Below the pieces are notes generated by a model. That model was not told the DNA's origin, did not search any database, and saw only the letters and a program-made list of their open reading frames with translations. 64,000 nucleotides of DNA from Tribonema minus (lineage: Eukaryota; Sar; Xanthophyceae; Tribonematales; Tribonemataceae): assembly GCA_017506865.1 (NCBI GenBank), contig JAFCMP010000053.1, positions 1 to 64,000 of the forward strand, written 5' to 3'. The translations under genes and the position numbers were made by a program. Within the stretch, counting starts at the first letter, position 1. Each line of letters opens with the position of its first letter. Shown in pieces: positions 1 through 64,000 of the stretch.

Positions 1-3000
1 GCGCCGGCCTGGCGGCCCATCATACCCACCATACTCCCCCCTCGGCGGATAATACCCGGGGGGGTCATCGTACCCGCGCCCACGCCCATATTCATCGCCA
101 GGGTGCCTCCTGCGGGGGTAGAACTCATCGTAATCGTCGGGGCCACGGCGCGGGTCGTACTGGCGGCGCGGCGGCAGCGGAATGGGGGCGCCGTCGTCCG
201 CGTAGCGCTGCGCGCGCGGGCGCGGCGCCGCGGTGGTAGCGGTCGTACCTGTGCGCGCGCGTGGTGGGGGGGGGCGAGGGGGGAGTTGCACTTGCTGTTG
301 AGCTCGGCGTACAAAGCGAACATGCCGAGGGGCAGAGGGGGGAGGGAAGATTCGCTCTCGCTGTGTCAAGCGCAAGTGAGCATGCAGGGGGGGGGGGGGG
401 AGTGTTGCCAATGGTGCTGCGCTAGCTCTGTGTGCGAGGCGTGAGCACGCGGCAGGGTGCACATACGCATTGTGCAGCGCGTCTGCGGGAGAGAGTCGGC
501 GCCAAAGGGGGCATGGGGGGCACAAGCGCAGGCGGCGCGATGAGTCGCGGCGACGGCCGTGAAAGCGGCCCGATCGCCACGTGGACGCCGCCACAGGCGG
601 CGCAGAGGCCATTTTCAATCGCGACACAGCATGCTGGCGCTCGCATCAAGTCCTCTTACATGTTGGCATCCTGTCAGAGCTTTCACAGCAACATCATCAT
701 GGTGCCAATGCCAGACAGTGTTGTCACTAAGTCAATTTTTTGACAGCAACATCGCCGTGCTGCCACGGCCTCGACAGCGACGTCACTCAAGCTCCTGCAA
801 GCGTAAAGCAACGCAGCAACGCCGTGCGCATCGCCGCCGCGCCACGAAACGCGCGCGCACCCACCTGTCGTCCCTCGGCGCAGCGCCGCGGTGGCCGCGC
901 TCCAGCTCCGGCCCATAGTACCGTCCGCTGCCGCCGCCGCTGCCGTACCCGTACGCGTCCCCCCCAAAGTCCCCATTGTAGCGCCGGTCGCCGCCGCCGC
1001 GGTAGTAGGCCGGGTCCAGCGGCGGCGACGCGCCGCGCGGCGCCGCCGCCGCCGCGTGCTGCGACGCATGGAAGTAGTGCGCGCTGCGCGGGACGGGGCG
1101 GCCGTAGGCATCCACGGCGCCGCCGCCGCCGTATTCATCGCGCGCCGCTGAGACGAAGTACGCCGACGCTGCGGCGGCGCCGCCGTCGAAGCCCGCCGCG
1201 GCGTCGTACGACGCGGTACTCGCGGGCGTGCCGTGCACCGTGTCGGCGGTGCTGAGCGAGGACGCGCTGGGGCGCTTCGCGCCGAGCTTCGGCAGCGCGT
1301 CCGGCTCCTGTCGCAATGGGGGAAAGAGGGGGGGGGGGGGGGGGTGTAAGGGGTTTTGGTGTCAGTTCTCCGTCGATGTCAACCCGCGGTGAAGGGAGGC
1401 AACGACACAGGGGGGTCAGCTGCAACCCCCATGTCGCAAAATGGTGCATGGCTACGGAGGAAGGGACGCCCTGCCTCATCCATCAGCAGCGATGCTCGGC
1501 GGCTACTTGCTGCGTCCTAGCTGCGAGCAATGTGTCTGTGAGAGATACGTCCCGCTGTTGGCAGCCGTCTGTCCTGCGTCCGCGGAGGAGGCGGCAACGG
1601 GTTGCCGAGCCGCTGCTGCGTGACCCTAACCCTCATTCTAACCCCTAACCCTAATTCCAACACCCAACCCTCATCCTAACCCTAACCCTACCCCTACTTC
1701 CACCCCTAACCCTAGCCAGCACTTGAAGCTGACACGCCAGTGACAAAGAAATCAGTCACGGCGGCATCTGCATGCGCTCGCGGCCGTCCTGCCGCTCCCT
1801 TCCCCTACTTTCCGAGCGCTGCGACGCACCTGCGGCGGCGGCGGCAGCAGCTTGTTGAGCAGCTGCTGCGTCTTGGACGGAAGCGCCGCGGCGGCGGCAG
1901 GCGGCACCGCGAGCGCACTGAACCCCGCCTGCTGCTGCGGCCCGTGCGGCGCGCTGGCGAAACCGCCGCCGCCGCCAGATGATGATGCGTGCCGCGCGGC
2001 TTGCGGCGCCTCGGGGTTGCTGCGGTGCAGGTGGTACTGCGGCTGGGGGTGGCCCGCAGGGATGATGCCGGCGCCGGTGCGGTCGAGGTGGTTGGTGGCG
2101 TTGCTGCTTGAAGTGGGGGGAAGAGGGGGGGGGGTGAGCCACTGTACCAGCAGCACAAATCATGAATCGAGCGTTGCTGCTTGAGGTGCGCGGGGGGGGG
2201 GGGGAGGGAGCGGGGCGGGATGAGCCACTGTGCTGGAAGCAAAACCAATCGTTCAGCGAGCAGTGGTCCCGATGGCGGGTGGCGTGGCTGGTACAACGTT
2301 CGTCGGAAGCTAACGAAGCAGGTCATTGTCGCATTTAAACATGTCAGAACATAAATTGCAAGGTGACGTCTCAGGGCGGGAGATGCATGAAGCTAGCTGC
2401 TCGCGCTGCAAAACCCTGCGCAATGGCCGCCGCGCCGCTGTCACAGGCGCGCCATGCCGCTGCTGCCTCGCACTGGGCCGACCGAGCGCAGACGCGCACG
2501 CCGCTCCGCCACCGCTGCCGCCCGAGCGGCGCGCAATGACACTGCAAGCACAGTCATCAGGCACATGACAGGCATCCCATATGCCGGAGGCGCGGCGCAC
2601 TGCTGCTGCGTGCGCGTGTGGCGTCAGCGCTCGTCGCTGATTGACTGAGCGTTGACACAACCGCCGCGAGGCACTCGCCGCCTGCGCCGGCAACAGCAAT
2701 CCGGGAGGGGGGGGGCAGCGGCCGATGGCAGCGCCGCCGCCGCGCCGAGCCCCGAGCGTGCACCGCACCTCACGTACTGCAACCGCAATCATGGACGTGC
2801 GTTCATGAAGTCCCCAAGGGAGGCCGGGTGTCCCGCGTGTTTGCCTACCGTTCGAATTTGAACTCCGCAAACTGGTCTGCGCTGTGCGCCCTCAGAGCGC
2901 GGGCGCCGATGACGCAAACCTGCACGCGCGTGCGCTACCTATTGGCACTACGGGCGGCTGCCGCCGTGCGCACCTCCTCTAGTCCCACGCAGCGACCTGG

Positions 3001-5130
3001 TCTGCCCCTGCGCACCCTCGGCGCTCTGACCCCTGCGCCGCAACACTGCGCACGCGCGCACTACATATTCGCACCATGAGCAACTTAGGCTCACGGTCAG
3101 AGCTGAAGTTAGGGTCGAGCCGTGCGCACCTCATGCCGAGGCTCTCATTGAAGATACTCTCGAACTGCGGCCCAAGGGTCGTCTCGCCCTCCGGCGGCGA
3201 CGGCACGGCCGGCGGCGGCGGCGCCTGCGCCTGCGGCGGCGGCGGCAGCCGCTCCTCCGCGCCCTGCTGCTGCTGCTGCTGCTGCTCTGGCGGCGGTGGC
3301 GCCATCTGCCCGGCCCGGCTGCGTGTGCGCGACGCGACGCAAGAGATGGGGTATGTTTTGAGCACGCTGACGGTGCACCGCGGCGGTCTCGCGTTGAGAC
3401 CACAGGGACAACTGCAGAAGCACGAATCGCAGATGCCTTCGGTGGGAGCGGCGAGAGTGGCCAGCTCGGCTGCGCGCGCGCGACGCGGCGCGACGAAGGC
3501 GGCAAGAAGTGTGTGCTGTGAGCACTTCAAAGGTACCTCGCAACGGTCGCGCTTCGAGGCCAGGGGGGGGCGAATTTGGCGGTCCGTGCGGAGAATCGTA
3601 CAAGCAGCGGGAGCGGATTCCATTGGCAGAGCCAACGATCTCAGCTCAGCGGTGCTGCATAAAACATTTTTCAGCGCCTGTCAGATGCACATCGCATATT
3701 CTCAAAAGTCTGCCAGCTACGCACCGGTGTGCAGCGGCACCTTGAGGCAGTAGAGTTTGAAGTTACTGCGTCGCGCGTCTGCGCGCGCACCGCTGCCATT
3801 CTGCAAGCGCTCTCTGCGCGGGCCAATGTGGTACCACTTGAAGCTAGCAACCGCACCTTGCGTGTGCGCGCGCGCACGCACTTGCTGATCGTGAGACACG
3901 CCCGCACACTCACACCACTGCCACGGGTGTTCTGAGGGCCTGGTGCAGCTGATTCGGCAGCACTTAAAGTTATCAACAGCGCTTCTTGAAGTTAGCGGCC
4001 GCGCCTTTGCGCCCGCACGCACCTGCTGTGTTTTTGAGGTACGCCTGCACGCGCGCCATGAGCGCCTTGTCGGTGATGGCGACCTTGGGGAAGCCGCCAC
4101 AGGCTGTATTTAAAGTTAGCACTTGGAGTTACTCATCACACTTTTTGAAGGTATTGACCGCGCTTCACGCACCTGCTGTTCTTGAGGTACGCCTGCACGC
4201 GCGCCATGAGCGCCTTGTCGGTGATGGCGACCTTGGGGAAGCCGCCGGGCGGCGGCGGCGGCAGGCGCTTGCCCTCGTACAGCACCTCCACAAGGTCGCG
4301 GTTGTGCAGGTCGTTGATGGACTCGACGATGGGGCCCGACGAGCTGGAGGAGCCGCGCGCGAGCGCCTCCAGCGACACCTGCGCGCAGAGTTTGTTTACG
4401 CACGTACATTATATGATTAGATTGTTGTGGGTGCGGCGTTTCAAATGCATCTTGATGATGATCTAGTCTTCGGAGTATGGCAGAATGCGGTAGGCTGAAG
4501 CTCAGACATGCGCCTCCAGTGACACCTGCGCGCGTCAGCGCTCAGCGGCAGCGCTCAGAGGCAGCGCTGACTCGCTTACTTGCTCACTTACTTGCGTGCT
4601 CAGCATGTGCTTGCGCAGCCGTGACGCTCATGGCGAGCGGCAGGCGAGCCCTGCTTCATCCACTGACCGTTACCTAGATCACGATCAGCAGCAGCATTCA
4701 GCACTCACCTCGCACACCATGGTCAGCCTCTAGCTGCCCCTACGAGAGCAACCGCAGCACTCACCCTGTGCAGTGCAGTTTCAAGGTGAGCGGTACGCCC
4801 TAACCCTAACCATAACCTAACCCTAACCCTAACCTTGACCGTAACTCCAGCCCTGACCCTACACCCATGGCCTGCACTGAAATTAGCAGCAGCATTCCGC
4901 GGCGCCGCGTGCGCCGCGGCGCGATGCCCAAGGTCAGCAGCAGTGCACACCTATCCCTACCAATCCTACATTCAAAACCAGCGGCGGCGCTCCACAGCAG
5001 CAGCAGCAGCAGCAGCGACGCTCACTTGGCAGCAGCGGCGCTCACTTTGCGCAGCGAGATGCCCAGGCCCAAGGTCAGCAGCAGCGCACACCTCACCGTA
5101 CAAACTCAATGTCAAGACCACCACCACCAC

Positions 5131-5161
<31 letters not shown>

Positions 5162-8100
5162 GCTCAGCCAAGTGCGCCCTCACCTTGCGCAGCGTGATGC
5201 CCATGGTCAGCGGCAGGCCGACCACGAGGCAGCACGCCGACTTGAAGTCCGACAGGTTCGCGCCCGTCGTCAGCACCAGCTCCGCCAGCGACACCATCCC
5301 CGGCAGCAGCACGCCGACCTCCGCGACCTCCTCGCGCTGCTTGGCGGCAGCGCGCGCGCTCGCAGACTTGCTGCCACTGCTCGACGACCGCTCGTGGTGC
5401 GGCCGCTGCTGCTGCTGCTGCTGCTCCTGCTGCTGCTGCGCCGCCGCTATCGCCGCCGCCGCCTCGCCTTCCGCCGGCGCCGGCGCCTCTGCTGCTGCTG
5501 CCGGCGGCGCGTCTGCCGCTGCCGCTGCCGCAGGTTGCGCGTTGGTATCGGTGCTCGGCGGCGGCATAATATCCTCCACCATCACCTCCGAGAGCTCGGG
5601 CTCCGGCATGTTCTCGATCTCGCCGAGCGCTGTGGACTCGAGCCTAATTAGGGTTAAGGGTTGGAATCAGGGCAAGGGTTAGGGTCTGAAAGCAGGGTCA
5701 GGGTCAGCGTTGAAAGTCAGGGGTTAGGAGCCTCCGTGTCGCCGCATGGATTGGTTCAAAACCCGCTCATCACCTTCTGCACCACGCGCATTCAAGAGCG
5801 CTGTCACTAGCTGCTGAACAACTGTGTTGGCCGGCTGGAGCTGGCCTACTGAACATGTGAGACCTTTCCAGTACTGAACACCCATGCCTCGAACGCTCAA
5901 AAGCTTGCACACAGAAGTTTTTTTGCCTACTGTGGACATGGTGGCACTGTTTGACTCGTGGCCAATGACTGCAGCAGCGGCGGCGACCACGGTTATTGGA
6001 AGAAGGCACTTGTGGCTAACCATCCCCTGTCACCAAGAGCTCTACAGTCTTTTGATTCGTGTTTATTAGGGTTAGTTGAGGTGTGAGCTGCAGATGGTGA
6101 TGACCACAGCTCACGACGATGAAGCAGGTTGGTGAGACAGAGGCTGAGCGTGTGACACCCGTGTAGGATTACAAAGATATCATGTATTCCGGTGACGGGG
6201 TGTGTCCTCTGCATCTCAGCGGCAGAACGAGGATTTGCCAAAGTCGTTGCAGTGTGCAGCAGCAGCGGCCAAGCTCGATGCTTCTACCTCTAGAAACCAG
6301 GCAGGAAGACTTGAGCCATGGCTCACAGCTGTGCTGAGAGATTTGTTGTACATCGGCGGATTGTTGGCTTGTAGGTGGCAAAGCACAGTTGTCAGGTAAA
6401 CGTAGCACTATGCATCGAGGCGACTGACTGCAACAGACCATGGGAAGTTCAACATACCACTTGCAGTTAATATACTTCAAAAGAGCCTCAGGCCACAGTT
6501 GTTCACCATCCAATCAAGGCAGAAAAGCTTGTAGTGTAAGCATGCCATAGTGTCGATGTGCACTCATGTCCGGGCACTACAAATGAAGGATCAGTGCTTT
6601 GCGACAAGCAGGTTCTTGGCGTACAGCCAAGTAAACTGCCAAAAGCGCATAGCGCTTAGGTTTTTCACAATGATTACTGCCATGCAGTCACCGTTCCCGT
6701 ACTTATCAGAAGCTGCAGTGCGGGTGCATGTCGAATGCGGGGTGACACCCCCCCCCCCCTTCCGGTGACTCCCCCTGCCCCCCCCCCCCCCCCCCCCCCC
6801 ACACACACACACCACCACCATCAATATATTCGAATCCAGGTCAGAGTTTACCAGCCCCGTCATGAACTTGCGTGGTCGTTGTCGCAGTCCAGCGCGCATC
6901 GTGATGTCCGTCATCCAAGCCTAACCCTAACCCTAACCCTAACCCTAACCCTAACTCACTTCCGCAGGCCGTGCACGGCGCGCGCGGCGCGGTCGCGCGC
7001 CGCTCCCATAAACTTCAAGTACTCTTTGTCACCAGTGCACAACTCTCTTGCACCTGAACGGCGGCGGGATTGAGCGCCGCCGCGCTTCTGCGCACGCGCG
7101 CACGCTCAGTCACCCTGAGCGTGGCACCGCACAGCGTTTCCCAGGCCCCAAGCAGCCTGGCTCACCCGAGGTGCGCCACGCGCTGCTCTAACCCTAACCC
7201 TAACCCTAACCCTAACCCTAACCCGAGGTGCGCCACGCGCTGCTCTAAACACGCAAGCACGCGTGCCGCGATCGCGCCTGCCTGCGCACTGCCACCCCCG
7301 CTGCGCGCACGAGAGCGCAAGCCTGCCGTCCGTCTCTCGCTCACCTGGGCGGGAGCATTGAGCGCTGCAGCGCCTGCGCTGAGCGCTGCGCCCACTGCCC
7401 CCTGCCCCCCCCCCCCCCCCCAACCCAGATGCGACTTAACGCGCCCGATTGCTGCAGCATTCCAGAGAGCGCACCGTAGCACTCCATCCCTACCTCACCT
7501 GAGCAGAGCGCACCATACAACAGCCCGACATCCAATTTTTGCTCACCTGAGGGGTGGCGGAATAGAGCGCCGCCGCGCCTGCGCGCCGCCCGCGAGCGCC
7601 AGCGCCGCCGCCTCCGCGGCCTCCTCCGCGTCGCCGTCGTCGCCGAACTGCGGCTCCGGCGCCGCCGCCGCCGGCGGGCTCGTCACAGGCGTCGGCGCCG
7701 CGGACGACGGCGACGGGGCAACGCTCAGCAGCGACTTGGCGGACCCCGGGAAGAAGCTCTTCGGCTTGGCAGCGGGCTCCGCCGGCGCCGCAGGCGCCGC
7801 AGCTGCCACGGGCGGTGCGGCGGCGGCGGCGGGGACGGCCGGCGCCGCGGCTTCCATCGGCGCCGCTGCCAGCGCTGCCGCCGCAGCGGGCGCTGCCGCA
7901 GCGGGCTGCGGCTCGGAAGCGGGGGGAGGTGCCGTAGGCGCGGCCGCGGGCGCCGCCGCCGCCGCTGCGGGCGGCGCGGCCTGCTGCTGCTGCTGCCACG
8001 CGCCCGGCGCCGCCGCCGCCGCCGCCCCTGCCGCCTGGCCCGGCTGGAAGTCGCTGCGCGCGGCCTGCGCGAGCGCCTCCATCGGGTTGCTGGCGACGCC

Positions 8101-11054: not shown

Positions 11055-12104
11055 GGTGGTGCCTTGTCGCGTTGGCGTTGCCCCGATTATGTGGGGCCTC
11101 CAGTCCTACTGCTGCCAGAAACGGCCTCCCCTTGCAGCTGCTGCTTGCTGTGCTAGCACCCGGGCATGGCAGCTTCGGCAGTCATCACACAGGGACTTGC
11201 CGGGCGCTTAGTGCCCGCCTGACGACCAAAGTGCCTGCTTGAGCAGGAGGGTCTAAAAAAAAGCTTTGCCCTAAGCTTAGGGTATCCGCTAACTTTGCGA
11301 AGAGGCCCGGAGAGCTCGGATACGAGGTGGGACAGTGAGAGGCAAGTTGGGCCATCATTTTGCCGCCTGCGGTGCCGAGCGTGTCACAGGCGATGAGTAC
11401 AGCCATGCAGGAGCAGGAGTCGCTGAAACGAGAACGCAAAGTCCTACACAGCACCATTGCTCGCTTTCTGCTTGTAAGCCAAAATATGTCAAGATTGACA
11501 GGTGGTGAACAAAGAAGGTTGAGGAGGTGTTGAACACAGTGCTCAGCAAACAGTACTCGAGATTCAGGCAAGCACGGTTTCAAGCAAGATTCGCAGGTCG
11601 CAGAGAATTTCAATTTGGGGCACATCACCAGGATTTGTCTCACGTGCACTGTTCAGAGGCGCCCCGGCGCTGCACGAGAACGCAAAGTGCTACAGCACAA
11701 ACTTTATCGCTGTCTGCTTTAAACCCAAAATATGTCAGAATGACAGGTGGTAAAACAAACGTTGAGGAGGTTTTTGAACACATCTAGTTACCCAGTGCTC
11801 AGGGTGCAGTACCAGAGGTTGACATCCCCTGCAAAGCACAGCAAAGCAAAGCGCGGTTTCAAGCATGATTTTGCAGGTCACAGAGATTTAAACTGGGGGC
11901 ACATCACCAGGATGTGTGTCACGTGCACTGTCAAGCGGCGCCCCAGCGCTGCACTCAAATGCTTTCCAAGACAAACGCACATGTCGATCATACCGCGTGG
12001 TCACGTAGCAAACATTACAATGGAGCGAGCAGAGAAAGAGAGACGGGCGCGCATCACATGTTTCGTGTTTATGTTTACAAAAAACATGTGTGCCAGGCGC
12101 GCGG
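11055..12104 (-). other. 5' flank of the RING-like gene, with internal tandem repeats
   Basis: This non-coding spacer lies between the RING-like gene start and the unc50 pseudogene. Two roughly 250-280-bp units (around 11424-11680 and 11670-11960) repeat shared blocks, such as GAGAACGCAAAGT at 11430 and 11676 and CACGTGCACTGT at 11641 and 11921. Short ORFs here are repeat-derived. The promoter presumably lies in 11055-11300, but no TATA box or other element is clear. Confidence 0.5.
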
Positions 12105-15101: not shown

Positions 15102-15155
15102 GCCCGAAGATAGAAACTCCAGCCATACGTCCTTAAGCTGGTGAGACTTCGCCAT
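15102..15155 (-). pseudogene. Remnant of RING-like gene exon 1 fused to unc50 sequence
   Basis: 54 nt encode the first 18 residues (MAKSHQLKDVWLEFLSSG) with the ATG and the whole duplicated 5' flank preserved. The frame then crosses into UNC50 exon-2 sequence one base out of register, so the chimeric reading is not UNC50. It could still be transcribed from the copied flank. Confidence 0.75.
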
Positions 15156-16204: not shown

Positions 16205-19200
16205 TCACAAGAAGTAGACGTGCGCCATGACGCGCGTCATGTTGACGCGCATGCCCAGCGCCGCCAGCAGCACGCTCGTTGCGAGGAGCGTCACCACCGC
16301 CACCACGGGGTAGAGGAACGTCTCCGTCTTGCACAGGAACGGCAAACTGCGCGGCGGCGGCGGCGGCGGCGGCGGCGGGCAGCGTGCATGCAGGCGGCGC
16401 GTGTCAGCATCGCTCGGGTGCTTGTCATCAAGAGCCTTTTGACACTGTGCAATGGCCGGCGCCGCGCGTGTCATCATACTTCTGCTGCACAGTGTATGTA
16501 GCTTGAATTGCTCACTTTCATAGCCCGGCCCATGCAGCATACATGCAGCATTATAGTGCCCCCCCCCCCCCTCTCCCGCACACATCATGTGAAGCCCATT
16601 GGCTTGCGCCGCTGATCACTGCAATCACTGAGGCAGCAATAACCAATAGTCTCTCCTAAAATTGGGGTGTGCTGTTTTATGGCGCCCCGTGGGGCATTGA
16701 GGGGCGGTGACGCATGGGGGCGCGGGGGGGGGGGGGGGATACAACATGATAGACGGTATGTCATGAAGCTACTGTACATGGTGGAAGGTGACAAAGAAGG
16801 ATGCTGAACGAAGCGGGATGTAACAGCATACCCTTTCAAGATTGAGGTGAGTGCGCGCTCTCACCTTCTATACCCCAGGTGCGTGATGTAGAAGTACGCG
16901 CCGAACCCCAGCGCGTACAGCGCGTTGCTGAGCAGCAGCGCTCCGACCGATGGCCCCAGCAGCACCGGCAGCAGCAGGAACTGGCCCACATACACCACAA
17001 TGAACAACTGCGAGAAGCGAGGGGCAGTGTGGCCACGTAGGTAGGGCATGTTACATGCGGTGCTGCCTGGAGCCACAATTAGCAGCTGCGACGATCAAAG
17101 GGCGGTGCAAGCACGCATGCAGGGTACGTTGCAAATGTACACCACAACCGCACAACTGCGAGAGACGAAGGGCAGCGAACGCATGACGGCATACGGGGCA
17201 TGTCACATACGGTGCTGTCATAAGCGGCGCGTTGAAACATGCGTGTTCCAAGGATGTTCCCGCTCAGGGGGTGCGGAGTTGCCCGTGGTGGCGAGTGCGC
17301 GTGTGTACTTCTGATGTACGCAGCTGTGCCTCTTGAGAACGCACACGTCAACAGAGGAATGCACCACGCTGTAACCGACGCGTGCATCGCATCACTCGAA
17401 CTTCAACTCAGCGCTCCTGCAGTAAGCTTGCACCTAGCGTGCATACGCAATGTTGTTCTACTCCGAAACCTCCAGCGCCCACATGAGTGTCAAGAAAGCT
17501 GCCATCACCTCGTGCATATCCCACAACGTGTGCATGTCGCTGGTGTCATATATATAACGTATTTGGGCGCGTGAAACGCATTTGCAGCGCACACGTATCG
17601 TACGCGGGCGCACTGGCCACCTGTTTGCTCTCGTCCAGACTCACAAAAAAGGAGAGCGACAACGTTACAATTGCCGCTGAGCACTGCTGTGCAGCCGATG
17701 CAGTCATGTGATGCCCCAGTGCAACCAATGTCGCACTTACTGACTGTCTCGTGCCCTACGACGTTCGCGCCCGCCAATCCGTGCTGCACCGCCGCCGCAC
17801 CATAAGGGAGCGCATTGCAGTGTACGTCTGGTGAGCACTGCTGTGCATCGGAGGCGGACACAAGACGCCCCAAACACACGTGTCCGCTGCCCCAGAACAA
17901 TTTGTGCGCCAGTTTGCAATTGCTGCTGAGCGCTGCTGCGCATCCTGCTTTGCATCCGATGCAGTCACGAAGCGCCCCAGACGCTGACCCTCCGGTGCCC
18001 GAGAGCAGCATGTACGCAAGGGTTCTCGCAGCCGCCTCACCATGAACAACGCGTTACAGTGTATGTCGCACGCGTACACTCACTCCCATCTGCTGTCAGG
18101 CGCTGCTGTGCATCGCATACGACGCTCAAACGACCACTGTCACTCAATATACTCTGTTGTGCCCCCCCACAAGCTGCGGTCGTACGCGCAGGTGCTGCGG
18201 CCCCCCACAAGAAACGCGGCACGTACTCTGTCCGGTAAACACTTTTGCACACATGCGCAAGGGGTTCGCATCATCGCCTCACCATAAAGAACGCGTTACA
18301 GTGTATGTCCCAACACCATTACCGTCTACACCCTGCAGCATTCACCGCAGCTTGCCCTTGGATTGGGATTTCAGTTGCGTGTGACGCCCGCCGTCGGAGC
18401 TCATACGCAAGCAAAGGTTCGCGTGATTGCCTCACCATAAAGAACGCGTTACAGTGTATGTCGATACGTACAGTCGCTCACACTTGCTGTTGAGCGCTGC
18501 TGTACATTAATGCGACGCTCCAGTAAAACGACCACTATCGCTCAACACGCTACAGTGCTCTCGGGCTGTATTCGATACTCTCTGTTGTGCCCCCATGAGC
18601 TGCGATCGTACGCGCAGCTACCGCCCCGCCACAAGATACGCGCGGTACACACTTCTCTCTGTCCGGTAGACGCTTTCACACATACGCAAGGGTCCGCAAC
18701 ATCGCCTCGCCATCAAGGCAACGCTGTTGTGTACGCAAGGAAGGGCTCGCGTCATCGCCTCACCATAAAGAACGCGTTACAGTGTATGTCGAACGCGTAC
18801 AGCCACTCCACGCGCTGCTCCACGCTGTGCGCGCGCCGCACGAGCATGTGGGCGTTGGCGAGCGCGCGCCCCGCCGTCGCCGCCGCGACCCCAAACAGCA
18901 GCCAGTGCAGGAGCACGGCGTTCGCGATGAGCGCGATGTACCCCTGCGCTCGGAACGTGCGGGCAGCGGTCAATCCAAACGCAACAGCGGGGGGGGGGTG
19001 AGAGGGTCAAAGCGACGACATGCCGTGTTCAACGGCCAGGGCAGGAGCAGAGCATTCGCAATGAGTGCGATGTAGCCCTGCGCTCGGAAGGCGTGGGCAG
19101 CGGGCAGCGCATGCGTAATATGTGAGGGGGGGGGGGGGAAGCGGATGCTGTGACAACAGTCTCGCGACTGCCACGCTAAACAGCAGCCAGTGCAGCACCA

Positions 19201-22120
19201 CGGCGTTCGCAATGAGCGCGATGTTGCCCTGCGCGTGTGGAACACACGGGCAATGAGCGGAGCCGCAAGGCCGGCAGTGGGCGCCGAAGCGATGGCACGC
19301 TGCGCTTAAGGTTGAAGTTGATTCAACCTAACCCTAACCTTATGCACATGCATATGCGCAGTGAGCACGCCGCTGCGGCCTCTGTCAGCCGCGCTCGCCG
19401 GCCAGCTTAGGAGCACGGCATTCGCGATTAGCGCGATGTAGCCCTGCGCCCAGGAGGCGCGGGCAGCGCGCAGCGCACGCGCAACATGGCGTGGGGGTGA
19501 GGGGCACTCACTCACTCACTCACTCACTCACCCAGAACGCGCGCAGCTCGAACGCCATGCCGTACGCACCCGTGCTGACAACGGAGAAAGCCGGCTGCAG
19601 CGCGGTGAACGCCGGGTCGTTGCGCGCCCATTTCAAAGCATGCATTCACTCACTTACTCACTCACCCAGAACGCACGCAGCCCAAACGCCATGCCATTAC
19701 GCGACCGCGCTGACAACGGAGAAAGCCGGCTGCAGCACGGTGAACGTTGAGTCGTCGCGCGCTCAATTTACTGCAAGCACTCGCTCACTCACTCACTCAC
19801 TCACCCAGAATGCGCGCAGCCCGAACGCCATGCCGTAGGCCACCGCGCCTGCCACGGAAAACGCCAGCTGCAGCACGGCAAAAGCCGGATCGTCGCGCGC
19901 CCACTGGTTCTTGGTCTGCTTGCGGTAGTACGCTGTCTTGTACACGCGGCCGGGGTTGAGGGACAGGAGCGTCACCATCTGGTCGCACGCGGACTCCATG
20001 TCCAACTTCACATGTGGTGGGGGGGGGGGGGTAGGGGGGGGGGGGGGGTTAAGGGATGCTATAGGGACAAGGGCCACGACCATGTACCGGTTCAACAGAT
20101 TGGGCCATAAGTGTACTTGCCGCTCTGGGGTCTTTCCATTGCTGTTGGGCTCTGCTGCATAATATGGATCGGCGGAGACGGAGATTATTCAACTTGAAGT
20201 TAGGATCGTCGCAGGCGGGGTTGAGGGACAGGAGCGTCACCATCTGGTCGCACGCGGACTCCACGTCCAACTTCACATTGGGGTGGTGGGGGGGGGGGGA
20301 TAAGGGGGAGGGGGGAGGGGGGATGAGTGCTGCTGTAAGTACAAGGGCTGCGACCATCTGCCAGCACAGTCTACTGAGAGCAGACAAGCGATGTGCTCTC
20401 CAGTCTGGGGTCATTTCGTCACTGTTGGGCTCTGTTGCATCAAAATGTACAGGCGGAGAGGGATAATGTTCAACTTGAAGTGGGAAATCGCAGGCAGGCG
20501 CAAGTGCTGAAAGGAGTTGACATGCCGCGGCTGCCATTCTTCCTGCTACTTGTCAGCAGATGAGCTCTGCTGCGCACAGCTACGTTACTGCTGCCTAGTG
20601 CGCAAATAGTTACCTGGTTTCGCGAGTGTGATATTCAACTTCAACTTTGAGGGTTGAATGTGCGGAGTGAAGGCCCTATGCACTTGTGTGGTGCACTGGT
20701 GCTGACACGCAGACCTCAAAATAACCCAATCTACTGTGGAAGTCAAGTTGAAAGCTGACGTTGCTGTTGGATGCTTACCAGTGCATGTAGGTTTGACACC
20801 AATCACAGCAGATCAAAAATCTGGCAGCACGCTGGTCATCCCAATGTACTGAGAGATCATGACATGCATGGTAGCTGCAATTGCTTTTAGCAGCAGCTGG
20901 CCCCTCTGACTGCGCGTATTTGTGACATGCCACAAAACGCTAGCGCTTTGGTGCCTGACAGTGTACCAAGAATGCAATCATGGGATAGACGACGGTTCCA
21001 ATGCTCTTGCTGATGTTAACGGCTTTGATGCAGCTGCTGAACAGCAAAATCCTGTGCAATGCAGCACTTCAATCACAGCGAGCACTGACATTGTGCTCTG
21101 GATGATACACAGCATCACCCGCAACTTGCAACTTCCCTACAAGAAAGCACCCCCCTCCTGAAGGAATGGGGGGCGAGCAACCCGGAAACAGACAGCTTCT
21201 GTAAGTTGCGCTTAAAGCACAGAGACCATCACCTCAACATTTGCTTAAATCTGAAACATGCGCATCACCTCATGTTTCCTGTTTCATTGAGATCATGTTA
21301 TGCCCATGCTGCGGGATTACATCTGCATTGCCATTGAGCCGTCCTGCCACGCTTAGCGCATGAACACCACCACGTGATCAGGGTTTCTGCCCTAACGGGC
21401 TAGCGCCTCAGGAAGTGAAGTTGCACGTAACGGCTTTGAAGTAGACGATAGCGAACGAAAAGACTCGTCTTCAGGAGCTTTGCAGGCCGCGAAGCGTGGC
21501 CGCAGGCTTGTGACTGCAATGCGATACATGCCAAGCGCCAAAACGCTGCATGCGGTCAGCGCCGCCTGTGCAGCAACTCGTCGCGAGCTGCTGTGCCAGC
21601 GCCAGAATCAGCTCGCAGCTTCCTTGGTGTTGCCGATGGAACCGGCACTAAACATGGGTAACTAAACCCCTGCACGCTGATTGGTAAACGGTCGTGCCGA
21701 GCTGCGTGAGGAACAATGCGCCTGCGCTGATTGGAGGCCATGCGCACCATGTCGCAAAAATCAGCATGCTAGTTTTTGCGAACTCAGATGCATCCCTAGT
21801 GCAGAGCCGCGCGCGCTACGTGATTTAGGAAGGCTGGCGCCCTGAAGGGTCCCTCGCCTATAATGCAGCATTTGCAATTTGACGCTAGAACACACTTGGA
21901 AAAACATTTGTGCAATGTTGGACTTTGAGTAAATTACTTCGCCATCGGCGTCTGTCCCAGATTGCGCCACGCTGCACGGCACTGGATCCACAACACGCTG
22001 CCGTACCTGTTTGAAGTCAAAAAGCCGAGCGAAGTACTCCGGCACCGATCTGTCCCCCCCGTAGCTGGAATGTCTCCGATGCGGGGCATATCTTCCGTTC
22101 CTCCCATCAAGGGGCAGCAT
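16205..22120 (-). CDS. UNC50: UNC-50 family membrane protein (complete, 5 exons, 259 aa)
   Basis: Exons: 22120-22007, 20005-19805, 18943-18764, 17007-16865 and 16346-16205 (stop at 16205-16207). All are GT-AG with matching phases. The product is 259 aa, the usual family length. Family hallmarks are PEYFARLFDFKQ at the end of exon 1, YYRKQTKNQWARDDPAF in exon 2, LYAFDIHCNAF in exon 3, and the hydrophobic ALYALGFGAYFYITHLGY followed by LPFL across exons 4/5. About five membrane segments are expected. Known for the family: UNC-50 / yeast Gmh1 act in the Golgi, are linked to Arf-GEF function, and in worm are needed for acetylcholine-receptor trafficking. The start is the ATG at 22118-22120; the upstream frame is closed by a stop 8 codons earlier. 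It is divergently paired with the ankyrin gene. Confidence 0.93.
17008..18763 (-). repeat. UNC50: UNC50 intron 3: copies of the exon-3 donor end
   Basis: The last 25-40 nt of exon 3 plus its donor (plus-strand core CGCCTCACCATAAAGAACG) recur at about 18275-18310, 18430-18465, 18035-18075 and 17795-17830, in increasingly diverged form. The rest has no other recognisable gene. Confidence 0.7.
18944..19804 (-). repeat. UNC50: UNC50 intron 2: copies of both flanking exon ends
   Basis: Next to the donor side are two copies of the exon-2 3' end with its GTGAGT donor (about 19520-19640 and 19660-19770). Next to the acceptor side are three copies of the exon-3 5' start with its acceptor (about 19395-19490, 19185-19250 and 19040-19110). 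The exon-2 donors lie inside (GTGA)n microsatellites. A short CCTAACCCTAACC tract is at 19326. Confidence 0.75.
20006..22006 (-). other. UNC50: UNC50 intron 1
   Basis: About 2.0 kb. It contains one partial copy of the 5' part of exon 2 with its acceptor (about 20203-20276, LDVESACDQMVTLLSLNP in the copy) followed by G-runs. The rest, 20600-21900, shows no gene or array that I can support. Confidence 0.6.
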
Positions 22121-22285
22121 CGCTGCACGCCCCAAACGCTAGCCCCGCCACTCCTCCTGCCTGTGCGCGCTTGACAGAAGCTTAAAATCCAGAAGGTGCT
22201 CTTCGTGTTCGTTGCCCTCCGAGAGCCACCAGCGATGGCGTGGAGGCAAAAGTGAAGACTACGCGCTCTATATGAGAGCTTCGCA
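22121..22285. promoter_or_regulatory. Head-to-head intergenic region, UNC50 / ankyrin gene
   Basis: Only 165 bp separate the two divergent start codons, so any promoter must be shared or overlapping. CTATATGAG at 22268 is a weak TATA-like match just upstream of the plus-strand gene; no motif is decisive. Confidence 0.35.
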
Positions 22286-35289: not shown

Positions 35290-35654
35290 GCCTGCTGTCA
35301 GGGGTGGGATCTTCCAACAAATCTCGCACAGCAGCTCCAAAGGCGGCGTGCTTTCGAGTAAATCGGCTCTGCAACGCGGTGTAGTTGTTCGAGCAACAGC
35401 TTTAGTGATGCAGCAGATTGCGCTGCTGCGAGCCCAGCGCGCCGCCAGGTTGGAGAACAGCGTGAGAGAGTTTTCAGGACCCCGGCTGGGCGGTGAGGTC
35501 CACCAGTTTTTTAGGGTGCTGGATAACGGATAGAAAACACTCACACACACACAAACACCGTTGAAGATATATTACAAGGGGTTGGGCACTGCAGTAGACT
35601 TCAACTGCTAAAAGAACGCTGACACCGCATCACAGAGCGTTGTGATAGCCCAGG
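35290..35654. promoter_or_regulatory. Head-to-head intergenic region, GALM / EF-hand gene
   Basis: 365 bp between divergent starts. No TATA box or other defined element stands out. A shared promoter region is inferred from the geometry alone. Confidence 0.35.
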
Positions 35655-41600: not shown

Positions 41601-44600
41601 CCTCATGCGCGGCACGGGGTGAGCGCTGCCACAAAGCTGTTTTATGGAACTCTATTGGGTGTATCTGTAGTGGCACCTTGTTTACTTCCGCTTGAGGGGC
41701 GGAAACCCTATGGGAAATGAGTCGTACTTGAGTACTGCAGTGCTTTCACAGAGTTTGGTCGGCCAGCCCGTTTGCAGAATTTGCCGAAAGTTGCACTGTG
41801 CGCACGACCGTGGACCTAATGCGCGGCACGGGGTGAGCGCTGCCGCAGCGCGTTGTATGCAACTAAATTGTTTGTATTAGGCTAGAACTTCGAGGTACCA
41901 GAAGTTGTAGTTTTACAGAGCTTAGTCGGTCCGCCCGTTCGCAGAGTTCGCCGCAGTTTCGTTGTGCGCATGACCGTGAACCTCATGCGCGGCACGGTGT
42001 GAGCGCTGCCGCAGTGCGTTGCGTGCGATGCGATTGGGTGTGTTTCTCGCAGAGTTTATTCAAGCAGCGTTTGAGCAGAACCAGGAGCAGATCGCGCGCA
42101 CGATCGCGGACCTCGTGCGCGGCACTGGGTGAGCGCTGCCGCAGCACTTCTTGTATGATACGATGTTCTACTTCTGGAGACGTCATTTGTGAGACATTTT
42201 CTACTCTCGCTTGAGGGCCGGAAACTCTATGAATGAATGAGTCGTACTTGAGTACTGCAGTGCTCATACGAAGTTTGGTCGACCAGCCCAATCGCCATCA
42301 GTATCATCATGCGGATGACCGTGGACCTCATGCGCGGCACGGGGCGAGCGCTGCTGCAGCGCGCTTCGTGCCATGTGATTGGGCGTGTGTCTCACAGAGT
42401 GTATCCAATCAGACCATTCCCAAAATTCGCTGACAGACCGCGTGCACGAGCGTTGGGCACAGGGTCAGCGTTGCTGCGCCGTTGCATAAGGAAAATAAGA
42501 TCGGGTGTACTCTTACGGAGCTTTGTCAACCAGCCCGTTCGCAGCATGCGGCGAAAGTATCATTTTGCGCAAGACCGTGGACCTGATGTGTGGCACGGTG
42601 TGAGCGCTGCTGCCGCTGCTGGGATGAGGTTAGGGTAGGGGCTAGGGTTGGCGGTAGCGGCTAGGGTTGGGCCAGGAGTTCCTCCTTAGTTAAAAAGTAG
42701 GTTTAGGACTACCTGATGCGCCGTTGCAGGGTGAGCGCTGCCATCATGTGTGATGAGGTTGGACCAAATAGTTGGGGCTTGTGGTGTCATGCTTCGACTG
42801 CGCGCGCCTGAGAGCTTCAGCAGCAGCAGTAGCATTTTCCGTGGCTCTCTCCTGTGATTGCTGATTTTGCGTAATACAAGGCCGATCCTCGCCAGCTGCA
42901 CCAAGCTATAGCACACGTTCTCACGGCAACTGCATATAGATGTATGACTGTTGCGCGGGTGCATACCCGCAAAATCATACTTCAAACGCTACATTACAAC
43001 AGTCGCGGAACTGAACGTATTTGATTGGTGTTTGCGCGCCTGGTGCAGGGCGAAGTTTGCATACGCCATGAGCTCCGGGCTGCAAGGGCAGGACGGCGAC
43101 TTGGAGAAGAGCAGGTGAACCCTAGGATAAGGGTTAGCAGGTTAGGGATTGCCATCCATGAATTCACATACAGAGCTTATCCAACCAGACCATTCCCAAA
43201 ATTCGCTGACAGTACAGCAAAGTTCAACAGACAGACATGCTTTTGACTGGGTCTGTGTTTAGCTATGAGCAGGAAAAGACGTATTTGTAGTCGGTGCGAC
43301 CTTCCTCGAGAACAAATCATAGCTACTGTAGCTCCACTTGATATTTTCTGCTGATTGTGCGCGTGCCCACTGTTGGACGCTGATACATGGCACATATGTC
43401 TGTTGTCTTCCTTACTGAAGCGTGATTGACAGTAGGAACTCTTTACGTGCATGTTCACATCTGAGGTGGGTCGCAGATGCATCCCATTGGCAACGCTCAG
43501 GCGGTAGCTTGCGGAGCACGTGCACGGCGCGCTGCGTGAGCGGCGCGAGCACGCGCAGAGGCTCTAGAACCTCATTCAACCCTACCCTAAACCCTAATGC
43601 TAACCCTAGCCCTAACCCTAACCGATGGCACCACTCAGGCGGCAGCTCGCGGAGCACGTGCACGGCGCGCTGCCTAAGCGCCGCGAGCGCACGGAGGCTC
43701 TGACCCTGGCCTAACCCTGACCCTAATGACATGCACGGTGGCAACGCTCAGGCGGCAGCTCGCGGAGCACATGCACGGCGCGCTGCGCGAGCGCCACGAT
43801 CGCGCAGAGGCACTTACCCAATCTGATGCTCGTCTGATCTGACCCAAACCCTGACCCTAACCCTAACCCTAAACCTAACCCTAACCCTAGTCACTCTACT
43901 CACCCTAACCCTAACCTTAAGTTGCATACGTGGTGGCAACGCTCAGGCGACAGCTCGCGGAGCACGTCCACGGCGCACTGCGCCCGCGGCGCTCGCGCAC
44001 GGAGACTCTAACCCTAGCCTAACGCTAACCCTAACCCTAATCACATGCATGGTGGCAACGCTCAGGCGGCAGCTCGCGGAGCCCGTGCACGGCACGCTGC
44101 GCCAGCGCCGCGAGCGCACGGAGGCTCTAACCCTACCCTAACCTAATCCTAGTCCTAACCCTAACCCTAACCCTGATTACATGCACGGTGGCAACGCTCA
44201 GGCGGCAGCTCGCGGAGCACGTGCACGGCGCGCTGCGCGAGCGCCGCGAGCGCGCGGAGGCTCTAGAACCTCATTCAACCCTACCCTAAACCCTAATGCT
44301 AACCCTAACCCTAACCCTAACCGATGGCACCACTCAGGCGGCAGCTCGCGAAGCACGTGCACAGCGCGCTGCGTAAGCGCCGCGAGCGCACGGAGGCTCT
44401 AACCCTGGCCTAACCCTGACCCTATTGACATGCGCGGTGGCAACGCTTAGGCGGCAGCTCGCGGAGCACGTGCACGGCGCGCTGCGCGAGCGCCACGAGC
44501 GCGCAGAGGCACTTACCCAATCTGATGCTCGTCTGATCTGACCCAAACCCTGACCCTAACCCTAACCCTAAACCTAACCCTAACCCTAGTCACTCTACTC

Positions 44601-47600
44601 ACCCTAACCCTAACCTTAAGTTGCATACGTGGTGGCAACGCTCAGGCGACAGCTCGCGGAGCACGTCCACGGCGCACTGCGCCCGCGGCGCTCGCGCACG
44701 GAGACTCTAACCCTAGCCTAACGCTAACCCTAACTCTAATTACATGCACGGTGGCAACGCTCAGGCGGCAGCTCGCGGAGCACGTGCACGGCACGCCGCG
44801 CGAGCGCAAGCGGAGGCTCTAACCTCATCTAACCCTAGCCTGACCCTAGCTCTAACCCTAACTCTAGCCCTAACCCTAACCCTAGTAACATGCACGATGC
44901 AACGCTCAGGCGACAGCTCGCGGAGCACGTCCACGGCGCGCTGCGCGAGCGCCGCGAGCGCGCGGCGGCCCTCAAAACTCACTCAACACTACCCTGATTT
45001 GAACCCTAGTCTAACCCTAACCCTCACCCTGATTGCATACATGGTGGCAACGCTCAGGCGGCAGCTCGCGGAGCACGTGCACGGCACGCTGCGCGAGCGC
45101 CGCGAGCGCGCGGAGGCGCGAGAGAAAGGCCGCAAGGAGGCGTTCGAGTCGTGGGCGCAGCAGAAGGACATGGTGGCGGCGGCGCTGGCGGCGCTGGCGC
45201 ACATCGAGGCGCCCAAGGGGGGGGGCGGGGGGGGGGGCGCGGGGGCGGGCAGGGGGGGCGCGGGGGAGGAGATGTGGCTGAAGGCAAGTCGTGGGCTGAG
45301 TAGAGTGGCTCATGAGTGGCCGCGCTTGTGGCATGAGCATGACTGTAAGAGGCCCGGTGTGCTGGCCTTTGCCCATGGCGTGTTTTCAACGACGTGTGAC
45401 CATGGACTCTAGTGCATGCTGCCACCTTGTACCTACCTACCCCATTCATACCTAAGCACGTACTTACGTACCCCTCGCTGTCCTCCGTGCGCAGGACGGC
45501 CGCGCCGACAAGGTAGTCGACGCGCGCCTTCAAAAACTACGTATGTATGTAGAAGTACAGAGTCATGGCATTTCCACAGCCACAAGTGGAATATAATAAA
45601 AGTACAAAGTCGTTGCGACACTTTCAGACTGTCATACGACATGTAGATTCCTTACAGCTAGATGCCAATCATCTGGGCTTTTTCGCGCCCTGAACGAGAA
45701 TTAATAAACAGTACAAAGTACAGCACATACTCAATTACCCACCATTCTCCAGTGCAGGTCGGCCGCGCCCTTGAGGCCATGGGCGCTTCTCTCTCTCAAG
45801 GAGCACGAATGTATGTATACTGTAGTACAGCACGTACTTACATATCCCCCATTCTCCGTGCGCAGGGCGGCCGCGCCCTTGAGGCCGTGGACACTTCTTC
45901 TTCTCAAGGAGTACGTGTGTATGTATGCATGTGTACAGTACATACTCGTAAACATACCCCCCATTCGCCATACAGGTCGGCCGCGCCCTCATGGCCGTGG
46001 AAGGACGCGCGCCTGCTCAAAGAGTACGTATGTACGTCTAGCGCACCTTGTACTTACATACCCCTCATTCTCCGTGCGCACGTCGGCCGCGCCCTCAAGG
46101 CCATGGACTTCTTCTTAAGGAGTATGCACGTATGTGTAGAACTAGTACAGCACGCACTTACATACCCCCATTATCCGTGTGTGCAGGTCGGCCGCGCCCT
46201 CAAGGCCGTCGACGCGCGCCTCCTGAAGGAGTGGATGGACTGGTGCACGCAGAGCGCTGCTGCGGGCGGCAGCGGCGGCAGCAGCGGCGGCGGCGGCGGC
46301 GGCGGCGGCGACGGCGGCGCGGACGCCGGCGGCGGCGACGGCAGGGGCAGGATCACCGCGGCGCAGTGCCAGGCGGTGTGGGACTTCCTGCCGCCCGTGG
46401 CCTGCGATACGCATGCAGGTGAGGTCACAGAGGGTATGTATGCATCTGTGTATGCATGTAGGCATGTAGGCATACGCGGTGAGGGGTTGCCTGCCGAGGA
46501 TTGCCATGCGTTAAAGTAGGTAGTTGAAGTATGTGGCATGTGCATCTGCGTATAGGCGGTATGGGACTTCCTACCGCCCGTGGCCTGCGACATGCATGCG
46601 GGCGAGAATGTCATATGTTGAAGTGGTACCTGAAGTATGTGGTGTATGTATGCAGGTTTAGGCAGTACAGGATTCTGTGCCGCCCATGGCCTGCGCCACA
46701 CACACGGGTGAGAGGGGATGGTCGCCGTGGGTATGTAGGTATATGGTGTATGCATGGGTACGTAGGTATAGGTGATGAGGTAGTGTCGTATGTGGCCTGC
46801 GACACGCATGCAGCGATTCGTTGCCATGTTGAAGTAGGTACCTTGAAGTTGTGGTGGATGCATGTGTGTATCGCTGTGGGACTTCCCGCGACGCACGCGA
46901 GCGAGTCGGCCAGTGTTGAAGTAGATACTGTGGAGTTGCTGCTAAACTTGCATTTTTCCCACTGCGCTGCTTGTACCCCTCTGCGCAGCCGGCTACAGCG
47001 CGCTGCGCGTGGCCTATATAAAGGCGATTGCTAGGCTGTAGTGCTGCTACTAATTCTGGCAAAAGTCTCATCGTCCTGCAACCGCAGCAAGCTTTTATTT
47101 TCCCACTGCGCTGCTTGCACCCTGCTGCGCTGTGTTGAAGTAGCTACTATGTGGTGTATGTATGTAGGTGTAGGCGGCATGGGGCTGCGGCACGCAGGCA
47201 GGCGATATTGTTGGCATATGTTGAAGTAGGTGTTTTAGAGTTGCTGCTGAACTTGCGTTTTCCCACTGCGCTTCTTGCACCCCGCTGCGCAGCCGGTTAC
47301 AGCGCGCTGCGCGAGACGTTCCTCAAGCTGCTGCGCCCCGGCGTGGACTACCGTGCCGGCTTCCAAAAGGTGCTGCAGAGGCGCACGCGACTCAGGGAGG
47401 GGTCGAGGGGCGGCAGCGAAGGTGAAACTTCAAGAAGTGAACTTCAATAAAAGGGCTCATGAGGGTGCAAGTGCGCAGACACACGGAACGCAAGCCACAC
47501 TTTTTGAAATGTGTGTGAGACGTCTGTGGGTTTGAATGATTCAACGCTTGATTGCTCCTCAGGGCATGCCGCTGTTCAGGGGATTGTCCACACTTCAACA

Positions 47601-50600
47601 GCAAACTTGAAGTATTGTCTTGGGGCACGACCGCCCTCTGAAGGGTAAGGGTTAGGGTTAGGGGAAAGTGTACAGGCCACACACGCACAGAAGGCGCAAT
47701 GGCATCAGCGCTCCGCATTCCTGTGCCACAACACAGTACCTCAACCCTACGTTTAGCCTGGTATGCGCTGGCTGCTTGTTGTTGCTCAGAGTTAAGGGCT
47801 AGGAGAGGGAGAGAAACAATACGCAGCCCAAAGCATGTGCCTCCAGGGGAGACCTGTTGTGGATTTGCGCCTACTTAGGGTTAGGGTTAGGACTAGGGTT
47901 GGCAGCAGACATGTCGTACATGTATCCCGGCAGAGTTTTGCAATTCTCTATACACATGTGTGCGCATGCGTGCCTCAATGCAAGTGGCTCACTCTGTTTG
48001 CTAAGGCCTGTGCAGCATTTGAATTGAGTTTCCGTGCGCAGCTTGCCTCATCTCAAACGGCGCGATTCCGGTCACTGACTTACTGCGCACGCAGGCTACA
48101 GCAAGTCCCCGCGTGACAAGGACGACTCAGATCCCGCGCTGACAAGGCCTTGCAGCCACCGATGTCTGGCCTCACAGTTGTGAAACTCACGCTACCCGCA
48201 ACTGTTGCATGACCGCAGAGGCTAAATTTGGATTACAAAATAATTAGTTGATGTATTATGATCTGGTTTGAGTTTAGGCGCGCAGCTTGCCCCATCTCAA
48301 ACGGCGCCATTCCGGTCACTGACTCACTGCGCGCACAGGCTACAACGAGTCCCCACGTGACAAAGACGACGCAGATCCTGCACTGACCAAGAGCGAGCTG
48401 CGCTACCTGCTCACCAAGGAGCTGGGCATAGTCATGGGCGCGGAGGAGATGCGGCGGCTGGTGGACGCATTTGACACTAATGAGGCATGTATTGGATGTA
48501 GATGTTACAAAACAACACACTTCAACTTGTGAACTTCAGTTGCTGACTGAGTATGGAGGAGACGCGGCGCCTGGTGGACGCTTTTGACACTAATAGGGTG
48601 CGTGTACATGACACAAATTAGTGCACTTCAACTCGCGAACTTCAGCTGCTGCATAGGCGCGGAGGACACCTGCTGGACGCCTTTGACGCTAATGGGGTAT
48701 GTGTAGACACGACATGGCAAACTTCAACTCATGAACTTCGGTCGCATGGGCAAGGACAACACGTGGCGCCCAGTGGTCGCATGTGACATTAATAGGGTAT
48801 GTGTAGATGGCACAAAATAATGCACTTTGACGCACAAACTTCAGCTGCTGCATGGCGCAGAGGAGATGCGGCGCCTGGACGCCTTTGACACGAACAGGGC
48901 ATGTGTGGATGACACAAAGTAATTGACTTCAACATGTGAACTTTAGCTGCAGCACGGGCGCGCAGACGAGATGCGGCGCCGGTGGACGCGGTCGACACAA
49001 ATAGGGTGCGTGTAGATGACAGAAAATAGTGCACTTCAACTTGTGAATTTCAGTTGCACGGGCGCAGCAGAGATGCGGCTTGGAGGACGCGTTTGACACT
49101 AATAGGGTGCATGTAGAATGACGCAAAATCGTGCACTTCAACTCATACTTGCTGCATGAGCGCGGAGGACACCTGGTGGACGGACGCCAATAGGGTATGT
49201 ATAGACACGACATGGTGACCTTTAAATCATAGCTTCCACTTTCAAGCAAGAAAAGACTCGACGAAGTAACACCAACGAAGTGCTGTCATTTGTAGAATTT
49301 GGGACGCAAGTCAAACAGAGTGTGGTGTTCAGTTTACTGCAAGCTCAGTGCGGAGATCACTTGTATTTTTACACGAACTTCTCAGAATGCGTCCCAAACC
49401 GCCACCAGAATGGCGGGAAGTGTCCAAGTGTCCGAGGGCTACGGCGCGAGGGGCAGGGTTGGTTAGGTCTAGGTGGCCACCACACAGAAGGTTTTAGAGT
49501 GTTGACTATATCGCGTTTGTACTCCACGTGACCGGACCGCTTGACTGCACTTCGCGAAATAAACGATTGCGCTCAAATAGGTATCATCAGGTGTATCGGG
49601 AGCATGTTGCACTTGCCGCAATTGCTTGTACCGTGCCCGCCTGCCGTTGCACTTGCGTCTAATCCTAACCGTAAGCCTACTCTAAGCGCGCCTCACAAAA
49701 GTGAGGTTTGGGGTTAAGGTCAGGATGAGAGTCAGGGTGAGGGTGCGAGCCTCAAGTCACCAAATCCTGGGAGCACACATCATCAGTTATACACCGTAGC
49801 CTGCTAGCACACATGACAAGCCCTATACTTCACCTTAAACTGAGGATATACTGATTGTTTCACCGCAGTTTTCAGACCTGCAGACACTTTTACGTTTTTG
49901 CAGGCCCCTGCTCCTGGTATCCTTAAAGGCTGTGGTGACTGGCTCTGCTCCAAACCAAATAATGTGGCGCTGGCAACTGACGTCTCCGCCCGCCTGCGTT
50001 ACATCTCATTTACAGGATCAGCACGTCTCGTGGCGCGAGTTTGAGGCTTTCACCGGCGGCACCCGGGACGCCCTGCGCGGCGACAGCACCAAGCGCCTGG
50101 AGCAGAGGTGACTTGCCGCCGGCACTGCTGCAAACTTCAACTTGCTCAAGGTTGTGGGGGGGGGGTCAGGGGAGGGCTGGGATCATGGTTCATTTGCCGG
50201 AAGCACTTGAGCAGCTGTACTCCAGTGTACTCCGGGGTTGAGCGCTACGGCAGCACGCACTTAGGGTTAGGGTTAGGCACCGACATGCGAGCGCAAAACT
50301 TGTGAGGGTTTGGGGTCAAAGGTGAGGAGTCAAGGTCTAAGTAACATGGCTTTTGTTCGCGTCAAGGCTAGGGCTAGGGTCGAGGCGTCCACGCCTCAGC
50401 GCTGAACGACCTTGTTTACGCCACAGGTGCACCTCGGTGACGACGGGCCCAGCGATGCCTCAGTGCTCAACATGTTGCTAATTATAGGCATGTATTGGCC
50501 TAAGTGCCACACGCCCTGAACTGAAGGTTGGAGATAGGATCGAGAGTAAGTGAAAGGATGAAGTAGGTTGAAGTTGGAGTCAGGGTCTGGGCATCCACAC

Positions 50601-64000: not shown

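Follow-up and report, generated by a model that had tools for sequence, protein, structure and literature searches.

Intron lengthening is often attributed to transposons and random insertions, and exon sequence repeated within an intron is familiar from tandem exon duplication and mutually exclusive exons. Closer to the introns of the yellow-green alga Tribonema minus described here are three routes of intron gain. In a potato gene, an intron was gained via tandem duplication across an intron-exon boundary, its acceptor signals being inherited from the parent intron, and that report also mentions an 83-bp duplication inside an intron (PMC4974935). In the Rogers/Hellsten model, introns are created from duplicated AGGT exon segments, as outlined in two papers (PMC4974935, PMC2891723), and introners generate new introns by transposition (PMC11453091).

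The Tribonema introns have something in common with each of these systems. With the potato gene they share a tandem duplication over an intron-exon boundary; however, the potato case is one event that produced a new intron and added exon sequence, whereas in Tribonema many events have made existing introns longer with the product unchanged (PMC4974935). Local tandem duplication as a source of intron sequence is common to them and to the Rogers/Hellsten model, in which the source is exonic only and the outcome is a new intron, while the Tribonema unit contains an existing junction. As with introners, repeated sequence forms introns in protists and algae (PMC11453091); introners, however, are dispersed and make new introns, and the Tribonema copies were found at their own junction only: upstream exon ends compared with one non-adjacent intron each gave no match in 32 queries. 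Window positions 1830-3000 had only three matches elsewhere in the genome, of 42-50 bp. With so little dispersed similarity in these two tests, both of them small, introners were rejected as the source. An existing intron that lengthens again and again through copies of its own borders is thus unlike intron gain of the exon-duplication, potato and introner types, and an open-access literature search, conducted mostly at listing level, returned no description of such growth.

The window, 64,000 nucleotides long, is the start of a contig of 376,077 bases in an assembly of 158 Mb. Six genes on four contigs were modelled: GALM (aldose 1-epimerase), UNC50 and an EF-hand gene within the window, and ATG9, a sulfite-oxidase-like gene and a P-type ATPase outside it, amounting to 40 exons and 34 introns (38.4 kb of intron in total, median intron 1026 bp). 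GALM and UNC50 were modelled by spliced protein alignment to the guides P0001 and P0121, respectively. The GALM model is equal in length to P0001, a transcript-derived EukProt protein from a close relative, and identical to it at 338 of 357 residues; the five-exon UNC50 model is identical to P0121, the NCBI UNC-50 protein of T. minus, at 259 of 259. For the EF-hand gene (plus strand, about 38.7-49.2 kb) the guide was the Ectocarpus protein P0241, 37% identical and the sole protein from its protein search. The outside genes came from a Pfam scan of the five most repeat-rich (L027, L028, L035, L039 and L040) among 15 sampled 10-kb stretches, three of which held usable genes: ATG9 in L028, the sulfite-oxidase-like gene in L035 and the ATPase in L040. 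Given this choice of stretches, copy density in the outside genes is biased, but copy position is not. The exon models of the EF-hand, ATG9, sulfite-oxidase-like and ATPase genes rest on distant homology and in part on provisional guides, that for ATG9 among them. Both Pfam matches of the L040 ATPase, which we take to be ATP13A1-like, are below the Pfam cut-offs. Pfam scans gave no usable model on the plus strand at 43-53 kb of the window, on both strands of L027 (where a single HlyIII match close to the end and a weak match to LRR appeared), on both strands of L039 or on the minus strands of L028, L035 and L040, and nothing named on the minus strand of window positions 1-10000. E. coli proteins compared with the sampled loci gave one match only, in L009. 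Within the window, the gene-based counts below cover the modelled genes only, to the exclusion of regions such as 50-64 kb.

Under the stricter of our rules, the six genes contain 82 exon-end copies, located at 35 of the 68 junctions and in 24 of the 34 introns; ten introns had no copy at the threshold. This agrees with what had been read from the letters alone, namely that in most long introns pieces of the flanking exon are repeated together with the splice site. The same sequence-only reading had proposed a count of junction segments against exon interiors and, run in the six genes, this count shows the junctions to be enriched: 40-bp exon ends compared with the intron that they adjoin gave 85 direct matches in 66 queries, versus five in 35 queries with exon middles. 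Far exon ends gave no match to the intron in 51 queries, and all the exon-end and exon-middle control queries together gave eight inverted matches. Among the 33 repeat pairs of GALM and UNC50, 18 are an exon end copied into the adjoining intron (random shifts give 4.2), 14 are intron-intron and one is marginal, with no other class represented. In these two genes, 22 copies align across the exon|intron junction, and for their exon ends the predicted order holds, with donor copies after the real donor and acceptor copies before the real acceptor. The EF-hand gene adds 31 further exon-end copies. The sequence-only reading had counted well over fifty copies in these three genes and a RING-like gene; at the threshold, GALM, UNC50 and the EF-hand gene hold 45, and a number above 50 would need the RING-like gene, in which only two repeat pairs were inspected. 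That exon ends are copied locally into the bordering introns of T. minus is confirmed.

GALM occupies 24860..35289 on the minus strand in 11 exons (35289-35239, 35049-34887, 34106-34010, 33453-33304, 32058-32031, 31295-31217, 30639-30563, 29257-29146, 27059-26929, 25711-25658 and 24988-24860). The end of exon 8 and its donor recur downstream in intron 8 at offsets 134, 249, 384 and 522 (array at 28383..29207), and the other end of this intron carries the acceptor array of exon 9 (26983..27547; offsets -173, -320 and -484). Exon 9 also has a donor array, in intron 9 (26347..26960), and a single acceptor copy of exon 7 is found in intron 6 (30606..30869; offset -186). Intron 2 contains a purely intronic minisatellite of about 22 bp (34189..34457).

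UNC50, also on the minus strand (16208..22120), has five exons: 22120-22007, 20005-19805, 18943-18764, 17007-16865 and 16346-16208. An acceptor copy of exon 2 is present in intron 1 (19945..20481; offset about -265). Intron 2 combines the donor array of exon 2 (19504..19903; offsets 138 and 273) with the acceptor array of exon 3 (18877..19504; offsets about -134, -285 and -500), and intron 3 combines the donor array of exon 3 (18011..18817; offsets 328, 481 and 723) with an acceptor copy of exon 4 (16991..17217). The position of intron 2 (19804-18944, minus strand) is uninterrupted in two related ORFs of metagenome source, P0142 and P0178, so this intron would be recently gained or lost, provided that no splicing was applied in calling the ORFs. 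A partial second UNC50 copy, which runs from the end of exon 2 into exon 5 and is followed by the start of the next gene, lies at 11050-15150 (minus strand), some 4 kb away from the intact gene; its UNC50 frame appears broken.

The EF-hand gene, on the plus strand, has donor arrays at the exon ending at 38753 (38704..39373, where two repeat families belong to one junction), at exon 40416-40488 (40440..40826) and at exon 41506-41618 (41573..42616), the last of which also has an acceptor array (41080..41566). A two-copy family whose copies are intronic flanks exon 43049-43114 (42394..43212). The exon starting at 45058 is preceded by an acceptor array of 11 copies with telomere-like CCCTAA between them (43488..45123), and the exon starting at 46187 by another (45455..46232). 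At 46371..47313, the donor array of exon 46187-46418 and the acceptor array of the exon starting at 47293 were merged by clustering. An acceptor copy of the exon starting near 48334 is found at 48024..48387 (offset -244), where the AG reads CA, and the exon ending at 48484 has a donor array with a period of about 102-113 bp (48433..49230). The donor at 48484 itself seems to be of the GC type, and its downstream copies read GT. In the RING-like gene (minus strand), an exon end of 65 identical bases followed by a GTGCGTG donor has one downstream copy with a diverged intron part (3959..4246), and a second, less clear pair is perhaps an exon end with a GTGAG donor (4926..5203).

Local direct repetition is common in the window and in the sampled stretches. 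Self-comparison of the window gave 170 direct repeat pairs, of which 132 are spaced by less than 1 kb, and seven inverted pairs, every one of them more than 10 kb apart. Local direct repeats take up 19.5% of the bases of the 15 sampled stretches, individual stretches ranging from 0 to 53%. These stretches hold 204 direct pairs at a spacing below 1 kb and three inverted ones; two E. coli stretches treated identically had no local direct repeats. Inverted or dispersed repeats were therefore excluded as a reading for the window and the 15 stretches by the direct and mostly close pairs. An assembly artefact appears excluded as well, given that most copies differ by several to 30%. Over the 214 kb of the window and the 15 stretches, the array unit has a median length of 138.5 bp, and 90 of 120 arrays have a unit of 100-200 bp, a peak close to the size of a nucleosome or of an Okazaki fragment. 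The copied exon part is shorter (median 50.5 bp, range 17-109 bp, 36 junctions); its reading as the footprint of a fixed exon overlap was dropped, as capping by exon length may explain the overlap. Only one young pair could be aligned over most of its unit under the breakpoint and microhomology filter. The copies are head-to-tail direct copies of one unit, as in ordinary tandem arrays, but their position is not independent of gene structure.

This dependence on position is clearest when the local direct repeats of the six genes are clustered, which yields 39 families. Exactly one splice junction is straddled by 35 of them (20 donor and 15 acceptor), two of which belong to the same junction. 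The used exon is on the outside in all 35 families that hold the end of one exon, in accordance with the claim that the genuine exon lies without exception on the outer side. Three of the other four families are intronic, the GALM minisatellite and the EF-hand two-copy family among them, and the fourth is the EF-hand donor family merged with the next acceptor family. No family is a whole-exon copy, lies inside any of the 40 exons or is on the wrong side of its junction (0 of 39). Tandem exon duplication copies a whole exon, whereas the Tribonema families copy one exon end and never both; copies of whole exons with both splice sites were thus rejected. Sliding the families along the genes gives 10.2 expected junction families among the 38 tolerated ones, versus 35 seen (P about 2e-17, with families treated as independent although two share a junction), and 11.5 expected families in classes that add exon sequence, versus none besides the merged one.

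One explanation for this distribution is that duplication occurs evenly across the genome, exonic duplications are purged, and the junction excess comes from introns that were once short or from easier detection of conserved exon copies. Local direct duplication is indeed common in the sampled stretches, an ordinary mutational process would suffice, and in the six genes no duplication inside an exon or over a whole exon survives. Selection against duplications in exons would account for the empty exon classes, but most of the survivors should then be duplications in the intron interior: neutrality alone predicts about 28 of the 38 surviving families inside introns, versus three seen, and even duplication about ten junction families, versus the 35 observed. 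With exons masked, 31 of the 35 junction families are still detected, a loss of only four. After all detected copies were subtracted from the intron lengths, 33 of the 36 testable families are of the junction type, where 12.1 would be expected (P about 2e-14). The excess is consequently poorly accounted for by detection bias or short introns. Families in which every pair is at least 80% identical point the same way, although this is a weaker test (eight of nine of the junction type versus 3.8 expected, P 0.002), as do two-copy families (nine of 11 versus 4.1, P 0.001). Older growth below detection may already have been in progress, which leaves the even-duplication explanation weakened, and we consider it rather unlikely. 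There is strong, though not final, evidence that the junction excess goes beyond filtering; growth too old to be detected may be underestimated.

Alternatively, the GC-rich exons might themselves be breakpoint hot spots, with only those events surviving whose other breakpoint is in an intron, and with splicing playing no part. All six genes have a GC step (exons 61-71%, introns 53-57%), and an exon breakpoint with a second one about 140 bp away would nearly always straddle a junction. Such hot spots should, however, also leave copies at the start and stop codon edges, which have none in five cases (five gene ends only), and repeat families within exons, of which there is none in any of the 40; both samples are small, and we regard this explanation as improbable.

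The state of the copies bears on whether they are in use. Of the copies that align across the junction, 40 are donor copies, 32 of which retain GT, and 45 are acceptor copies, 39 of which retain AG. It could be proposed that the inner copies are kept since extra splice sites or half exons aid splicing or give alternative products, considering that the GT or AG is intact in 71 of these 85 copies and that the exon parts of copies are far more alike than their intron flanks. However, the loss of the dinucleotide in the other 14 is about what a change of 6-7% per site predicts. Mismatches in the exon copies amount to 88 of 1238, 75 of 1234 and 181 of 1242 at codon positions 1, 2 and 3, respectively (7.1, 6.1 and 14.6%), where the surplus at position 3 is explained by the silent change expected in the real exon. 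The copies thus look unconstrained, from the loss of GT and AG together with the similar change at codon positions 1 and 2, and they seem to decay roughly neutrally. Moreover, the GALM protein of the relative has the same length as the outer-exon product, and the exon and intron columns between inner copies differ little (below). Retention of the inner splice sites for a function was rejected on the decay of GT and AG and on the codon-position mismatches, and we give this explanation very little credence.

The two sides of the copies have nevertheless diverged to different degrees when compared with the used junction. Across the 82 copies, identity is 0.92-0.94 in the first 20 bp of exon and 0.63-0.73 in the intron beyond 8 bp, versus 0.56 at random, so the intron flanks are above random in the six genes. 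For the 30 copies whose exon part is at least 95% identical, the intron flank should have an identity of about 0.94; the observed value is 0.69, compared with 0.48 for unrelated intron. The copies are therefore unlike simple young duplications, their intron flanks being far less alike than their exon parts. When inner copies are compared with each other, with the real exons masked for the choice of alignment, exon-derived columns have an identity of 0.88 (0.86 once columns labelled on just one side, themselves at 0.72, are included), with half as many gaps, versus 0.81 for intron-derived columns. Faster insertion and deletion in introns is likely to be, at least in part, the cause of the flank divergence. 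Copies nearer to the exon are weakly more exon-like (16 families versus nine, of 26; permutation P 0.02), which is what an origin of new copies at the junction would produce.

A further possibility is that the introns themselves originated when exon segments were duplicated in tandem, following the Rogers model, and that the copies are leftovers of this origin. Exon-segment duplication is a reported source of new introns (PMC2891723, PMC4974935), and the UNC50 intron position that is uninterrupted in P0142 and P0178 would fit with it. This model, however, predicts exon|exon copies in the reverse order, while the observed copies are exon|intron, and those of donors and of acceptors each lie at the corresponding end of the intron. 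Exon-to-exon copies across the splice position, the mark of intron creation by exonic duplication, were not what was found in GALM and UNC50, where the 22 copies span exon|intron. Since the copies carry exon|intron and not exon|exon, the intron predates the duplication, and an origin of this kind is the explanation to which we assign the least probability, next to none.

We thus lean, with reserve, towards a reading in which introns lengthen at their ends by recurrent local duplications that straddle the junction, in a process biased to exon-intron boundaries. Recurrent duplications, mostly of 100-200 bp, would lengthen the intron from both ends and leave the protein unchanged. The outer junction would be kept in use as the only one that borders a complete exon, as exon definition suggests, and the copied half exons, having no partner splice site, would be ignored and removed with the intron. 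The copies would then decay close to neutrally and presumably be displaced towards mid-intron by the arrival of new ones. The outer exons yield the annotated UNC50 protein of T. minus and match the transcript-derived GALM protein of the relative. Together with the exon|intron copies and the decay of GT and AG, this supports the earlier proposal of a protein-neutral intron growth by duplications across splice sites; as a whole account, however, neutrality falls short, as the scarcity of intron-interior families demonstrates. The excess of junction families over intron-interior ones beyond neutrality suggests that the duplication process is itself biased to exon-intron boundaries, which is the best, though unproven, reading of this scarcity. 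Candidate sources of the bias are replication or repair slippage aided by the GC step, nucleosome position (in view of the unit size), transcription or splicing. More tentatively, and on balance doubtful to us, duplication aimed at boundaries by splicing, transcription or nucleosomes may be a main route of intron growth genome-wide, with introns acting as conveyor belts of their own decaying junction copies. The source of intron length is in these introns directly readable, as copies of their own borders dated by decay. T. minus is thereby a test genome for intron growth and for the choice of splice site among near-identical sites, and a setting in which to ask whether splicing or transcription shapes local mutation.

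Other repeated sequences were observed in the window. Interstitial telomere-like CCCTAA/TTAGGG stretches occur at 1623-1714, 4798-4866, 31851-31884, 39829-39875, 43842-44885, 61501-61563 and 62691-62729, several of them intronic; the CTAAC within them resembles, we presume, a branch-point sequence. A near-palindromic motif like CAGCAGCGCTCA / TGAGCAGCGCTGCTG recurs at 34189-34457, 41170-41274 and 55421-55686. Between UNC50 and GALM, on the opposite strand, an uninterrupted frame (22256-23536, plus strand) has repeats with a period of about 81 bp and GCPW motifs, which we take to be ankyrin-like.
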